This document shows, piece after piece, positions 28,884 through 33,689 of a DNA stretch of 39,422 nucleotides. Position 1 is the stretch's first letter, and each line of letters begins with the position of its first letter. Under the pieces are notes generated by a model that saw only the letters and a program-made list of their open reading frames with translations, did not search any database and was not told the origin of the DNA. The position numbers were made by a program, and so were the translations under genes. Origin of the DNA: Rhizobium sp. Q54 (lineage in GTDB: Bacteria > Pseudomonadota > Alphaproteobacteria > Rhizobiales > Xanthobacteraceae); assembly GCA_945861265.1 (NCBI GenBank), contig CAMAUC010000027.1, positions 1 to 39,422 of the forward strand. The letters are read 5' to 3'.

Positions 28884-30314
28884 ATGAGCAAATTCGGGGG
28901 CCTATTCGCCCGTAAGCCGGGTGTATTCGATCAGCTGGCGCAGCCGTCGCCGACCGGCGCGGCCGTCCCCGAGAACCCGCTGGAACTCGACGAGGAGCTG
29001 TTCTCGGTGCTCGGCGCCCAGATCGGCGGCGACAACGAGACCCTGCGCAACCTTTTGCTCGATGCCAACGCCAAAATCGGCGAGCTCGACGCCATCAAGG
29101 CCGCGGTCGGCAAGCTGGCCGATCCGGTCTCCAAGACCTTGCGCGCCTATGAGGCCGAGAAATCGGAAAAGCTCAGCCTGCAGGCCGTGCTCAACAATAC
29201 CCGCACCGCCTACGGCAAGCTGCGCAACGAAGTCGCCGAATTCGAGAAGAAGGCGACGCATTTCGAGCATGAATGCGGCGCGCTGCGCCAGGAACTGACC
29301 ACCACGCAGAGCCTTTTGCGCGCCGTCGAGGCGACCAAGGCCGAGATCTCCATCGATATCGCCGCCCGCCGCGCCCAGATCGCCGATCTGGAAGGCCGGC
29401 TGACGCAGGAAACCGGCGAAAGCCAGGCGCTGCGCGAGGAAAACCGCCGTCTCGACGAGCGTCTCACCGCCCTGAACAAGCGCGTCATCACGCTCGAATC
29501 CGACCTCAACGCGGCGCGCCAGCGCCTGTTGATGGCCGACGACGAGAAGCGCGCGCAGCAGGCCACGCTCGACAAGATGAACTCCGATGCGTCGCGCCTG
29601 TCGCGCAAGCTGGCCGAGACCGAAGCCAGCCTGAGCGCCACGCAAGGCCGCCTGCGCCATGTCGAAGGCAACTTCACCGAAGTGAACAACGAACGCGCCC
29701 GCCTGGTCAGCGCGCTCGACGAGAGCAACGAGCGCCACGACCACGAACTGACCAGCCAGCGCATGCGCTTCGACGCGCTGCAGGCCCGCGCCACCTCCAC
29801 CGACAACCTGCTCGGCGAAGCGCGCGAACATCTTTTGGCCCGCGCCGAGGAAATCCGCGAATACGACCGCCGCGTCAGCGAAGTCAGCAACGAGCGCGAC
29901 AATTTGCAGGCCCGCGTCGCCGATCTCGAGGCCGACCGCATTCGCCGCGAATCCGAGATCAAGGAAATGGATCACGCGCGCCAGACTTTGATGGAACGCG
30001 GCGGCGCGCTGACCCGCGCCTATTCCGCCAAGGAAGCGGCGCTGACCCGCGCCGAAGACAGCGTCGCCGCGCTCAGCGCCCAAGTCGATATGCTGACCAA
30101 GGAACGCGCCAACGACAAGATGCTGGCCGAACAGGCGATCGAGGAACTCAAGGCCGCCCTGCAACGCGAGAAGCTCGACCGTTCGGTGGTCGAGGGCGCG
30201 CTCGAAGCCGGCCGCAAGGACTTCGCCCGCGTCATGCGCGAGGTGATGAGCCTGCAGCGTTCGCAGCAGGCGGCCGAGGAGCCGGAAGTGCTGGAAGCCG
30301 CCAACGCTGCGTGA
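28884..30314 (+). CDS. Crescentin-like coiled-coil protein
   Basis: The 476-residue product is almost entirely coiled coil (about 45-465) with a short head (MSKFGGLFARKPG) and an acidic/alanine tail. It has no signal peptide or membrane segment, so it is cytoplasmic. Length and build resemble crescentin, the intermediate-filament-like protein that curves Caulobacter cells; this family is my best guess, but coiled coils give weak evidence. It is paralogous to the frameshifted gene at 24547-26048 in head-to-tail order. The full CtrA site upstream suggests cell-cycle-timed expression, so a role in shape or polarity is plausible. A strong terminator follows. Confidence 0.75.
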   Translation: MSKFGGLFARKPGVFDQLAQPSPTGAAVPENPLELDEELFSVLGAQIGGDNETLRNLLLDANAKIGELDAIKAAVGKLADPVSKTLRAYEAEKSEKLSLQAVLNNTRTAYGKLRNEVAEFEKKATHFEHECGALRQELTTTQSLLRAVEATKAEISIDIAARRAQIADLEGRLTQETGESQALREENRRLDERLTALNKRVITLESDLNAARQRLLMADDEKRAQQATLDKMNSDASRLSRKLAETEASLSATQGRLRHVEGNFTEVNNERARLVSALDESNERHDHELTSQRMRFDALQARATSTDNLLGEAREHLLARAEEIREYDRRVSEVSNERDNLQARVADLEADRIRRESEIKEMDHARQTLMERGGALTRAYSAKEAALTRAEDSVAALSAQVDMLTKERANDKMLAEQAIEELKAALQREKLDRSVVEGALEAGRKDFARVMREVMSLQRSQQAAEEPEVLEAANAA

Positions 30315-30516: not shown

Positions 30517-31854
30517 ATGAGCAACTCGCCTCCGGCTTCGCTGGCGCTCGCCGAGCGCAATGTGCCGCGCTACACGTCCTATCCGTCGGCGCCGCATTTT
30601 TCCGCCAAGATCGGCGCGGAGACCTATCGCGGCTGGCTGGCCGCGCTGCCGCGCGCCGCGCGCGTGTCGCTCTATATCCATGTGCCGTACTGCACCGAGC
30701 TTTGCTTCTATTGCGGCTGCAACACCCGCGCCGTGCGCAAGCGCGCGCCGGTCGACGCCTATGCCGAACACCTGATCGCGGAAATCGCCTTGCTCGGCGA
30801 TCTCAACGGCGCGCGGCTGACGCATATCCACTGGGGCGGCGGCACGCCGTCGATCCTCGGGCCGCAATGGCTGGAGACGATTTCGGGCAAGATCGCGTCG
30901 CGCTTCGACCTGAGCGAACTGAAAGAACACGCTATCGAACTCGACCCGCGGCGGATGGACCAGCCGCTGGTGCGCACGCTGAAAGCCATCGGCATCAACC
31001 GCGCCAGCCTCGGCATGCAGGATGCCTCGCCGCATGTGCAGCACGCCATCGGCCGGGTGCAGCCCTTCGAGCAGGTCGAGCGCGCCGCCCAGTGGCTGCG
31101 CGAAGCGGGCATTGAAAACCTCAATCTCGATCTGATGTACGGCCTGCCGAAACAGACCGGCCAGGACGTCGCGCGCAGCGCCGAGCTTGCCGCGTCGCTG
31201 CATCCGCAGCGGTTGGCGCTGTTCGGCTACGCCCATGTGCCGTGGTTCAAGACGCATCAGCGCCTAATCGACCCCGCTACCTTGCCAGGCGCGGCCGAGC
31301 GCATCGCGCAGGCCGCGATCGCCGCCGAGACTTTGGCGAGCTTCGGCTATCGGACAATCGGCCTCGATCACTTTGCCCTGCCCGATGACGAACTCAGCAT
31401 TGCCGCGCGCGAAGGCCGGCTGCATCGGAATTTTCAGGGCTACACCACCGACGATGCCGACGCGTTGATCGGCATCGGCGCATCGTCCATCGGCAAACTG
31501 CCGCAAGGCTATGTGCAGAATGCGCCGGACATGGGGCATTATTCACGTAGCATCACCGCCGGCACGTTCGCGACGGTGAAAGGTCTGGCGCTCTCCGACG
31601 ACGACCGCTTGCGTGCGGCCATCATCGAACGGCTGATGTGCGATCTGGCGCTCGATCTCGATGACTTCGGCGGCGTTGCGCGCTTTGCCGGTGAGATGGA
31701 AACGCTGCAAGGCTTGGCGGCGCAGAGCCTGCTGACCATCGACGGCGGCAGAATCGCGATCACCGAAGCGGGGCGGCCGTATATCCGCATCGCGGCGGCG
31801 GCCTTTGACAGCTATCTGACAGCCAGCCAAAAGCGGCATTCGGTGGCGGTCTAA
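30517..31854 (+). CDS. hemN: Oxygen-independent coproporphyrinogen III dehydrogenase
   Basis: The 445-residue product is a radical-SAM enzyme that converts coproporphyrinogen III to protoporphyrinogen IX without oxygen. The radical-SAM cluster motif is YCTELCFYCGC (C59, C63, C66, with C68 following, as in HemN). The N-terminal VPRYTSYPSAPHF, the GGGTPS segment and the HemN C-terminal domain (from about 360) fit true HemN rather than the HemW look-alikes. It works in the cytoplasm. A FixK/Fnr-like box upstream supports low-oxygen expression. Next to it on the opposite strand is a DUF6455-like gene. Confidence 0.95.
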   Translation: MSNSPPASLALAERNVPRYTSYPSAPHFSAKIGAETYRGWLAALPRAARVSLYIHVPYCTELCFYCGCNTRAVRKRAPVDAYAEHLIAEIALLGDLNGARLTHIHWGGGTPSILGPQWLETISGKIASRFDLSELKEHAIELDPRRMDQPLVRTLKAIGINRASLGMQDASPHVQHAIGRVQPFEQVERAAQWLREAGIENLNLDLMYGLPKQTGQDVARSAELAASLHPQRLALFGYAHVPWFKTHQRLIDPATLPGAAERIAQAAIAAETLASFGYRTIGLDHFALPDDELSIAAREGRLHRNFQGYTTDDADALIGIGASSIGKLPQGYVQNAPDMGHYSRSITAGTFATVKGLALSDDDRLRAAIIERLMCDLALDLDDFGGVARFAGEMETLQGLAAQSLLTIDGGRIAITEAGRPYIRIAAAAFDSYLTASQKRHSVAV

Positions 31855-32243: not shown

Positions 32244-32277
32244 AAAAAGAAGGGCCACCTTTGCGAGGCGGCCCTTC
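32244..32277 (-). terminator. Terminator of the small-ORF unit
   Basis: Read on the minus strand, GAAGGGCCGCC (32277-32267) pairs with GGTGGCCCTTC (32259-32249), with one G-U pair, followed by TTTTT (32248-32244). A canonical terminator that lies between the small-ORF element and the DUF6455-like gene. Confidence 0.88.
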
Positions 32278-32349
32278 CATTGTCGAAACCGTGGCCCGAT
32301 TGCACGCAGCCTTACCCGCCGCGTGTCGTGACCCAGGTGACTTCTCAAA

Positions 32350-32427
32350 TCACCTGCACTGGACCTCGGCAGAGGCGAGGACCCAGTTCACGAATGCCGG
32401 CGACCGCGGCGATAGACAATGAGACAC
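32350..32427 (-). CDS. 25-residue small ORF with extended Shine-Dalgarno
   Basis: A GTG at 32427 starts a 25-residue ORF (MSHCLSPRSPAFVNWVLASA then EVQCR). The ribosome-binding region GAAAGGAGGTGATCCAG (32443-32427) complements the 3' end of 16S rRNA over 17 bases, and GGAGG is 7 bases from the GTG, an ideal distance. The ORF contains two cysteines and no signal peptide or membrane segment. It may encode a microprotein, or the GTG reading may be a by-product of an RNA that binds the ribosome. Nothing in the sequence reveals a function. Confidence 0.4.
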   Translation of the reverse strand: MSHCLSPRSPAFVNWVLASAEVQCR

Positions 32428-32463
32428 TGGATCACCTCCTTTCGGTTGTTGATGGACCCGATA

Positions 32464-32469
32464 AATATA
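32464..32469 (-). promoter_or_regulatory. Possible -10 box of the small-ORF unit
   Basis: Minus-strand TATATT lies about 37 bases upstream of the GTG, in an AT-rich stretch that stands out in this GC-rich window. No clear -35 element is visible, so this is tentative. Confidence 0.3.
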
Positions 32470-32516
32470 GAGGGGGTTTGGGGAGAAGAAAGGGGCATTC
32501 TGGGGCCAACCAGCCC

Positions 32517-33689
32517 CTACCTCACCAACTCCCGCATCGCCCGATCCAATCCGTCCAGCGTCAAAGGATACATCCGCCCGCCCATCAGCTGCTTCACCAT
32601 CTGGATCGAGTGCGTGAAGTCCCATTCGCGCTCGGGCGTCGGGTTGAGCCACACCGCGTGCGGATAAATGCGCAGCACGCGCTCCATCCACACCTGCCCG
32701 GATTCTTCGTTGTAGTGCTCGACCGAGCCGCCGGGCGCGGCTATCTCGTAAGGCGACATCGAGGCGTCACCCACGAACACGACTTTATAGTCGTGCGGAA
32801 AGGTGTGCAGCACGTCGAAGGTCGGTGTCGTCGCCTGGAAGCGCCTTCGGTTTTCCTTCCACACCTTCTCGTACAGGCAATTATGGAAGTAGAAATGCTC
32901 CATGTGCTTGAACTCGGTGCGCGCCGCCGAAAACAATTCCTCGGTCGCCTTGATGTGCCAGTCCATCGAACCGCCGATGTCGAAGAACAGCAGCACCTTC
33001 ACCGCATTGTGCCGCTCCGGCCGCATCTGGATGTCGAGATAACCCTTGTGCGCGGTGCCTTTGATGGTGCCGTCGAGGTCCAACTCATCCGGCGCGCCGG
33101 TGCGGGCGAATTTGCGCAAACGTCGCAGCGCCACCTTGATGTTGCGGGTGCCGAGCTCGACCTCGTCGTCGAGATCCTTGAACTCGCGCTTGTCCCAGAC
33201 TTTCACGGCGCGCCGGTGCGTGCTCTCGCCGCCGATGCGGATGCCTTCCGGGTTGTAGCCGCCATTGCCGAAGGGCGACGTGCCGCCGGTGCCGATCCAT
33301 TTCGAGCCACCCTGGTGGCGGCCTTTCTGCTCGGCCAATCGCTCTTTGAGAGTCTCCAGCAATTTATCGAGCCCACCGAGCGCCTGGATCTGCGCCTTCT
33401 CTTCCTCGGTGAGATATTTGTCGGTCATCTTCTTCAGCCACTCGGCCGGGATGTCGGCGGCCAGGCCGTCGCCGAGCATTTCCAGCCCCTTGAACGCCGT
33501 GCCGAAGACGCGGTCGAACTTGTCGATGTTGCGCTCGTCCTTCACCAACACGGCGCGCGCCAGATAATAGAAATCCTCGACGCGGCGCGAAGCCAGATCG
33601 GCATGCATCGCCTCCATCAGCGTCAGATATTCGCGCAAAGACACCGGCACGCCGGCGGCTTTGAGGTCGTGGAAGAAATTGACGAACAT
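32517..33689 (-). CDS. CoxE-like VWA-domain protein
   Basis: The 390-residue product has an N-terminal helical region (about 1-120) and a C-terminal von Willebrand A-like domain from about 225, with a MIDAS-like DIGGSMD (237-243) in which the first serine of the D-x-S-x-S motif is Gly. This modified motif is common in CoxE-like proteins. Such VWA proteins act with MoxR ATPases in complex assembly. Partner candidate: the MoxR gene at 17904-18749. ATG 33689 fits the conserved start (MFVNFFHDLKAAGVPVSLRE). It is divergent from the BioF2-like gene. Confidence 0.88.
   Translation of the reverse strand: MFVNFFHDLKAAGVPVSLREYLTLMEAMHADLASRRVEDFYYLARAVLVKDERNIDKFDRVFGTAFKGLEMLGDGLAADIPAEWLKKMTDKYLTEEEKAQIQALGGLDKLLETLKERLAEQKGRHQGGSKWIGTGGTSPFGNGGYNPEGIRIGGESTHRRAVKVWDKREFKDLDDEVELGTRNIKVALRRLRKFARTGAPDELDLDGTIKGTAHKGYLDIQMRPERHNAVKVLLFFDIGGSMDWHIKATEELFSAARTEFKHMEHFYFHNCLYEKVWKENRRRFQATTPTFDVLHTFPHDYKVVFVGDASMSPYEIAAPGGSVEHYNEESGQVWMERVLRIYPHAVWLNPTPEREWDFTHSIQMVKQLMGGRMYPLTLDGLDRAMRELVR

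Follow-up and report, generated by a model that had tools for sequence, protein, structure and literature searches.

The minus strand of the window (the whole stretch of 39,422 nt analysed here) carries, between positions 32470 and 32244, one compact unit in which a -10-like sequence, an extended Shine-Dalgarno sequence (SD), an open reading frame (ORF) with a GTG start, hairpins and a terminator can be read. This element is a putatively stand-alone small RNA or small mRNA of an already described kind, that of the Rfam family RF01867 (CC2171) and of rreB and rreR. We infer, tentatively and with slightly less than even confidence, that it is a ribosome-engaging regulatory RNA in which ribosome binding and ribosome passage are selected rather than the peptide, and which would act as a translation-gated regulator or as a sensor of initiation capacity. 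Its parts are the following:

32461 to 32470, minus strand: -10-like CTATATTTAT, a presumed promoter, read from the sequence
32427 to 32443, minus strand: extended Shine-Dalgarno GAAAGGAGGTGATCCAG, the complement of the 16S rRNA 3' end (pattern match, conservation, duplex energy)
32350 to 32427, minus strand: ORF of 25 codons with GTG start and TGA stop, VSHCLSPRSPAFVNWVLASAEVQCR (sequence; length conserved in relatives)
32415 to 32421, minus strand: 5' strand of helix P1, CAUUGUC, codons 3-5 (Rfam consensus structure, RNAalifold, pair counts)
32405 to 32410, minus strand: 5' strand of P1b, GCCGCG (RNAalifold, pair counts)
32359 to 32386, minus strand: predicted hairpin within the ORF's 3' half, CUGGGUCCUCG...CGAGGUCCAG (MFE structure)
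32335 to 32355, minus strand: predicted hairpin spanning the stop codon, AGGUGAUUUGAGAAGUCACCU (MFE structure)
32288 to 32293, minus strand: 3' strand of P1b, CACGGU (RNAalifold, pair counts)
32278 to 32284, minus strand: 3' strand of P1, GACAAUG, immediately 5' of the terminator (Rfam consensus structure, RNAalifold, pair counts)
32244 to 32277, minus strand: intrinsic terminator, a G+C-rich stem and T run (sequence, fold, RF01867 model stem)

A sequence-only reading of this DNA had placed a 25-codon GTG ORF directly behind the SD, and this stands, with the frame running from 32427 to 32350 (minus strand) and the final G of GAAAGGAGGTGATCCAG serving as the first base of its start codon. The hairpins and terminator that it had described within a compact unit are likewise borne out by the MFE structure, with a fold of -91.2 kcal/mol (z -3.83) that is more stable than 200 of 200 shuffles. 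As regards a stand-alone transcript, promoter-like and terminator sequences are both present at the level of sequence; relatives (n = 149) show A/T-rich and T-rich positions at promoter-like distances, conserved weakly, and a terminator finder detected a terminator in 183 of 271 related loci. The predicted hairpin at 32335..32355 is not family-wide, because most loci of the clade A alignment (A1) have gaps there.

The claim that the unit lies outside any known gene has to be withdrawn, since the covariance-model search that had been proposed as a check returned RF01867 (CC2171 sRNA) at 32251-32451 of the minus strand, with 83.9 bits against a gathering cut-off of 75. The match is full length (model positions 1-159), with 5' end, P1 and terminator shared, and membership is indicated both by the score and by the presence of the consensus long-range pairing and terminator stem. 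The element's own genome has one RF01867 match. At E<=0.001 the family model matches 123 of 249 genomes of the order, the cut-off being reached in 20 of 249, and 85 of 385 genomes of the class. About 214 distinct RF01867 places were counted and 158 inspected (L002 duplicates L001); nine of the 158 carry no SD at the expected place and appear chance-like, and their removal, with GGAGGT required by the filter, gives the 149 loci used below. A search with the pattern GAAAGGAGGTGATCCNRTG (at most one mismatch) matched 88 of 385 class genomes, at one place each except for two in G260, with no reversed-control matches in the table for these 385 genomes. In a phylum draw, 78 of 398 genomes matched, G725 being the sole one outside the class, and the reversed control matched in one genome (G708). 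A named-genome scan gave at least 120 stretches; the 80 records listed from it carry alphaproteobacterial names or are MAGs labelled just Proteobacteria. Among the genomes searched in the order, class and phylum draws and the named-genome scan, matches are almost confined to Alphaproteobacteria. Genomes in which no match was seen may carry forms that have diverged.

SD and start-codon features of 120 pattern-found loci were not counted as evidence, because the search pattern fixes both. Phage carriage was considered and rejected: two stretches of a viral collection match, one without a start codon and the other with a 150-codon ORF, and both were taken as chance. The 271-locus set behind the terminator, neighbour and duplex counts includes these two viral loci, and the 213-locus set for ORF length excludes them. 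Forty further loci of several clades with lower RF01867 scores reach no Rfam cut-off over the element, and the three Rfam matches among these loci all lie beside it. Two loci have an FMN riboswitch ~250 bases or less away from the element (L073:167-317 and L157:129-273). G260 carries two element types (L050 and L142), one of 24 codons (MSHC) and one of 18 codons (MSHG), and the difference between them suggests paralogous branches.

The identity of plus-strand positions 32427-32443 with the 16S 3' end, the central claim of the sequence-only reading, held. CTGGATCACCTCCTTTC lies there with 0 mismatches and is the sole match in the window at <=3 mismatches, versus a mean of 0.12 matches in shuffled sequence at the same threshold (at least one match in 11 of 100 shuffles). 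Two same-family genomes (G035 and G216) contain GGCTGGATCACCTCCTTTCTAA, so that their 16S 3' ends and the 17 nt agree at every base; some match was obtained in 4 of 32 genomes and none in the element's own. The 15-nt core GGATCACCTCCTTTC (at most one mismatch) has a single place in the draft genome, at the element, from which it follows that this genome contains no assembled 16S 3' end; the identity is that with the 16S of the two relatives. A 16S-mimicking RNA, which had also been suggested, agrees with the plus-strand sequence, whereas the strand that RF01867 matches is the 16S complement.

The duplex between SD and 16S is predicted at -28.8 kcal/mol for the window element. Long-ORF starts pair less strongly, the 700 taken from fetched flanks having a median of -7.6 and a best value of -18.0 kcal/mol and the 31 of the window a median of -7.2 and a best value of -13.6 kcal/mol, which upholds the description of the minus strand as a complement extending beyond a normal ribosome-binding site. 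Over 271 elements the median is -28.6 kcal/mol (two chance viral loci included), and the weakest of them still pairs more strongly than all 700 long-ORF starts. Among the 149 loci, GGAGG is preceded by GAAA in nearly constant surroundings (144, 140, 148 and 149 of 149 at the four bases) and GGAGGUG is followed by AUCC (135, 146, 149 and 138 of 149) and then RUGUC, with conservation dropping beyond, although this conservation is partly built in, as the RF01867 model and the GGAGGT filter both contain the SD. The complement ends at the C of the 16S ...UUUC; in 126 of 149 loci C or T takes the next position, where A would be required. In 148 of 149 loci a distance of 12 nt separates GGAGG and the start codon, a figure again partly built in, as the model covers the region. 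By its sequence, then, the 5' part is able to pair with 15-17 nt of the 16S 3' tail, with the start codon at a fixed distance. No special openness of the SD is predicted by ViennaRNA (unpaired probability 0.32 on average versus 0.33 for the whole RNA; more open than the whole RNA in 55 of 100 representatives), and the idea of an SD exposed in a free tail was dropped as unsupported by predicted accessibility. An internal anti-SD (aSD) switch, in which the 16S-like segment CTGGATCCTC of the ORF would sequester the SD, was likewise rejected: it is not general, because ViennaRNA predicts an aSD-like partner in just 23 of 100 representatives.

Downstream of the SD, RNAalifold recovered a long-range helix (P1) in which codons 3-5 pair with the stretch that precedes the terminator, both in clade A (alignment A1, 19 loci) and in clade B (alignment A2, 27 loci); 30 loci had been chosen for each alignment, and those without a detected terminator were left out, as were L111 and L158, whose terminator was wrongly assigned. 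P1 covaries in both clades, as judged from the alignments. In clade A, 93.1% of cells are paired versus 30.8-53.9% when the strands are slid, with a covariation score of 0.154 versus 0.098 shuffled, and in clade B, where the counts include a CARC hairpin, 89.4% are paired versus 38.6-50.2% slid, with a covariation score of 0.372 versus 0.277 and 22 versus 9.9 cells changed on both sides; the relatedness of loci is not corrected for in these counts. The two innermost pairs of clade B are often unpaired (12 of 27 and 8 of 27). The two alignments share no stretch besides the 5' SD region, and the P1 strands differ while their pairing is kept. When a single register was imposed on 144 representatives of all clades, 0.564 of cells were paired versus a swap mean of 0.438 (maximum 0.476). 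Because this signal comes mostly from clade A (0.865 in 38 loci; 0.485, 0.391 and 0.433 in the other groups), P1 outside clades A and B was judged by inspection. Thermodynamics without alignment gives at least four expected P1 pairs in 61 of 100 representatives, a figure with no control run, and in a whole-duplex swap test the own partner surpassed 95% of swaps in 28 of 148 loci (median rank 0.146), a weaker result than the per-clade counts. Through the pairing of codons 3-5 (further in some loci) with the pre-terminator segment, P1 closes the remainder of the RNA in clades A and B.

The length of the ORF is kept across relatives. After dereplication of 308 loci to 213, the in-frame stop lies at 18-30 codons in 202, whereas reading the other frames gives 27 and 33; stops before codon 14 number 0 in frame versus 93 and 101 in the others. 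Of the 149 RF01867-derived loci, 137 have their stop at 18-30 codons; the other two frames give 13 of 145 and 19 of 149, and the shuffle control a mean of 30.6 (maximum 44). Unlike the SD, the stop position is not built into the search. Going by these sequences, the open frame usually spans 18-30 codons, and in one large clade it ends next to a hairpin. ORFs of the clade with MSSE or MSSG starts end at a YGGAG-CARC-CUYCR hairpin, read as EQPS, RSSL or GAA. This CARC hairpin is present in 85 of 305 ORFs, most of the 305 being without one, and is read in the three frames 62, 20 and 3 times, and in 70 of these 85 ORFs the stop lies 0-13 nt beyond the hairpin; a few of the 85 hairpins appear chance-like (e.g. 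L030, L037, L198, L212 and L247), all in the second-commonest frame. Three loci (L123, L155 and L188) have a 55-56-codon ORF behind an extended SD, by eye with a signal peptide and a polar tail.

The peptide, on the other hand, drifts. No amino-acid constraint was detected in 70 disjoint near pairs of equal ORF length and 70-98.5% identity, where 93 of 323 single-change codons are synonymous versus 94.2 expected and where changes from codon 4 onward number 206, 217 and 190 at codon positions 1, 2 and 3. RNA structure may restrain silent changes too, but amino-acid constraint should give a deficit at positions 1 and 2. The purifying selection on amino acids that would mark a microprotein gene was thus not seen in these pairs. 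Peptides are dissimilar between clades, and within the family they measure 14 aa in two other genera (g2 and g4) and 25 aa in the window and g3. Because the ORF length is kept in many relatives and the protein sequence is not, these results suggest that being translated matters more than the product. The available portions of the literature searched gave no description of an ORF length conserved without its sequence.

In the mechanism that we favour, a 30S subunit would be captured with very high affinity, engagement of the start codon would require P1 to open, and the ribosome would traverse P1 and the ORF hairpin and terminate at a set place. From such capture, opening and run-through would follow two states differing in stability, one closed and ribosome-free and one open and translated. 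Ribosome engagement would open P1 and speed turnover of the RNA, so that closed RNA would accumulate when initiation fails, and selection would maintain engagement and passage and not the peptide. Set beside the three options of the sequence-only reading, a ribosome-engaging, dual-function RNA would fit best. Against this mechanism stand the SD that is not predicted to be specially open, the P1 register signal that comes mostly from clade A, the P1 pairs that thermodynamics gives in 61 of 100 representatives with no control, the weak duplex swap test, and the CARC hairpin that is found in a minority of ORFs; binding rather than passage might be the point if translation is weak, as is reported for rreB. 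We see it as possible, though short of likely, that the element is a normally single-copy RNA gene whose function is ribosome binding and passage, a gauge or holder of 30S initiation capacity, with CC2171, rreB and rreR as branches of one family. If true, the element would offer a clear natural example of a frame that is translated for the sake of translation itself rather than of its peptide. Common laboratory alphaproteobacteria would then allow the role of very strong SD pairing to be tested, and the Rfam sRNA family RF01867 and the small mRNAs rreB and rreR would appear to be one and the same.

The main rival is a 30S decoy or buffer: by occupying the 16S 3' end the RNA would reduce initiation capacity or hold it in reserve, and the ORF would be translated only to free trapped subunits. 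The duplex energies, with a median of -28.6 kcal/mol and all 700 long-ORF starts weaker than the weakest of 271 elements, the strong (partly built-in) conservation of the 16S complement and the reported co-sedimentation of rreB RNA with 30S agree with this; a decoy alone, however, requires no set ORF length and would need an abundance comparable with that of ribosomes, and we consider it rather unlikely. The set length at which the ORF stays open would also be expected of a small mRNA for a functional microprotein, the strongly translated product once proposed, and the 55-56-codon ORFs of L123, L155 and L188 have the look of secreted peptides. In addition, S. meliloti SEP1 reportedly has 23 aa, a Western blot signal, a pI of 4.18 and the highest TE of 54 non-annotated sORFs, beside which the element of a Rhizobiaceae MAG encodes a peptide of 23 aa with a pI of 4.05 (Biopython); SEP1 could be a homologue and would then show a real peptide. 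The microprotein is nevertheless disfavoured, and distinctly improbable, given the missing synonymous excess in the near pairs, the CARC hairpin read in three frames within one clade, and peptides that are unlike between clades and change from 14 aa in g2 and g4 to 25 aa in the window and g3.

A classical trans-acting sRNA, with SD and ORF serving only protection or processing, would account for the Rfam type (sRNA), the element's own terminator and the listing of a CC2171-type RNA as sRNA MH_s33 in Mesorhizobium (in the available part of that source), but is unlikely in view of the two clade alignments, which have no common stretch beyond the 5' SD and P1 strands that vary with pairing kept. 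The short ORF, hairpins and terminator together also resemble an attenuator or leader of a downstream gene. In the window, however, the next gene, of the HemN-type radical SAM kind (30517-31854, plus strand), is convergent with the element, and a CoxE-like VWA gene (32517-33689) lies upstream on the same strand as the element. The most widespread neighbour family occurs at 22 of 271 loci and the most widespread downstream same-strand family at 16 of 271, counts that are lower bounds because many loci have only ~400 nt of flank per side; within these short flanks no linked downstream gene is widely shared. We take the element not to be tied to one host gene, and regard an attenuator as very improbable. 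L262 and 15 other loci (16 of 271) have an ORF downstream on the same strand, which we take to resemble UPF0178/DUF188. Elsewhere in the window, a 476-aa protein (28884-30314, plus strand) matches the crescentin rod domain (Rod_CreS, E 7e-80).

A ribosome-engaging RNA has its nearest likeness in rreB and rreR, which reportedly combine a 16S complement of ~17 nt, a GTG start and a short ORF in an RNA of ~165 nt. The type reportedly requires that 16 nt or more directly ahead of a short ORF be complementary to the 16S 3' end, and the window element has 17 nt when compared with the 16S of the two same-family genomes. rreB is also reported to co-sediment with 30S, to be weakly translated owing to its extended SD and GTG, to be stabilised by a start-to-stop mutation and to encode 14 aa, rreR encoding 18 aa. 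The RF01867 search gave 14-codon ORFs, the length reported for rreB, at seven loci in two genera of the same family (6.3-8.8 Mb), and 18-codon ORFs, the length reported for rreR, at other loci. The window ORF differs in having 25 codons and an unrelated peptide. As the 25-aa peptide is unlike the 14-codon ORFs of the same-family loci, we file the element as of the rreB/rreR kind and not as an rreB peptide orthologue.

With RF01867, the family of the Caulobacter sRNA CC2171, the window element has 5' end, P1 and terminator in common; the family is typed as sRNA, with 16S complement and ORF absent from its name, and many loci of like anatomy score below its cut-off. The literature searched gave no link between CC2171 and rreB, and the text of Hahn et al. 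2017 (RNA Biol 14:1353), the reference for rreB and rreR, lay outside that search, so we do not claim that the link is unpublished. Named S. meliloti RNAs gave no counterpart in the available parts of their sources: sra56 is 6S RNA, and neither sra25 nor SmelC671 could be linked to the element there. rnTrpL/peTrpL of S. meliloti (PMC10117765, from its available part) is similarly a short alphaproteobacterial RNA with a tiny ORF, and of dual function, but rnTrpL is a leaderless RNA that is the counterpart of the trp attenuator, whereas the element has an extreme SD and no linked gene was found within the flanks. The extended SD motifs of S. aureus (PMC13009471, likewise from its available part) resemble the element in pairing beyond the SD core towards the start codon; they are general, at ~30% of initiation sites by the estimate given there, whereas the element usually occupies one place per genome and offers nearly the whole 16S tail for pairing.
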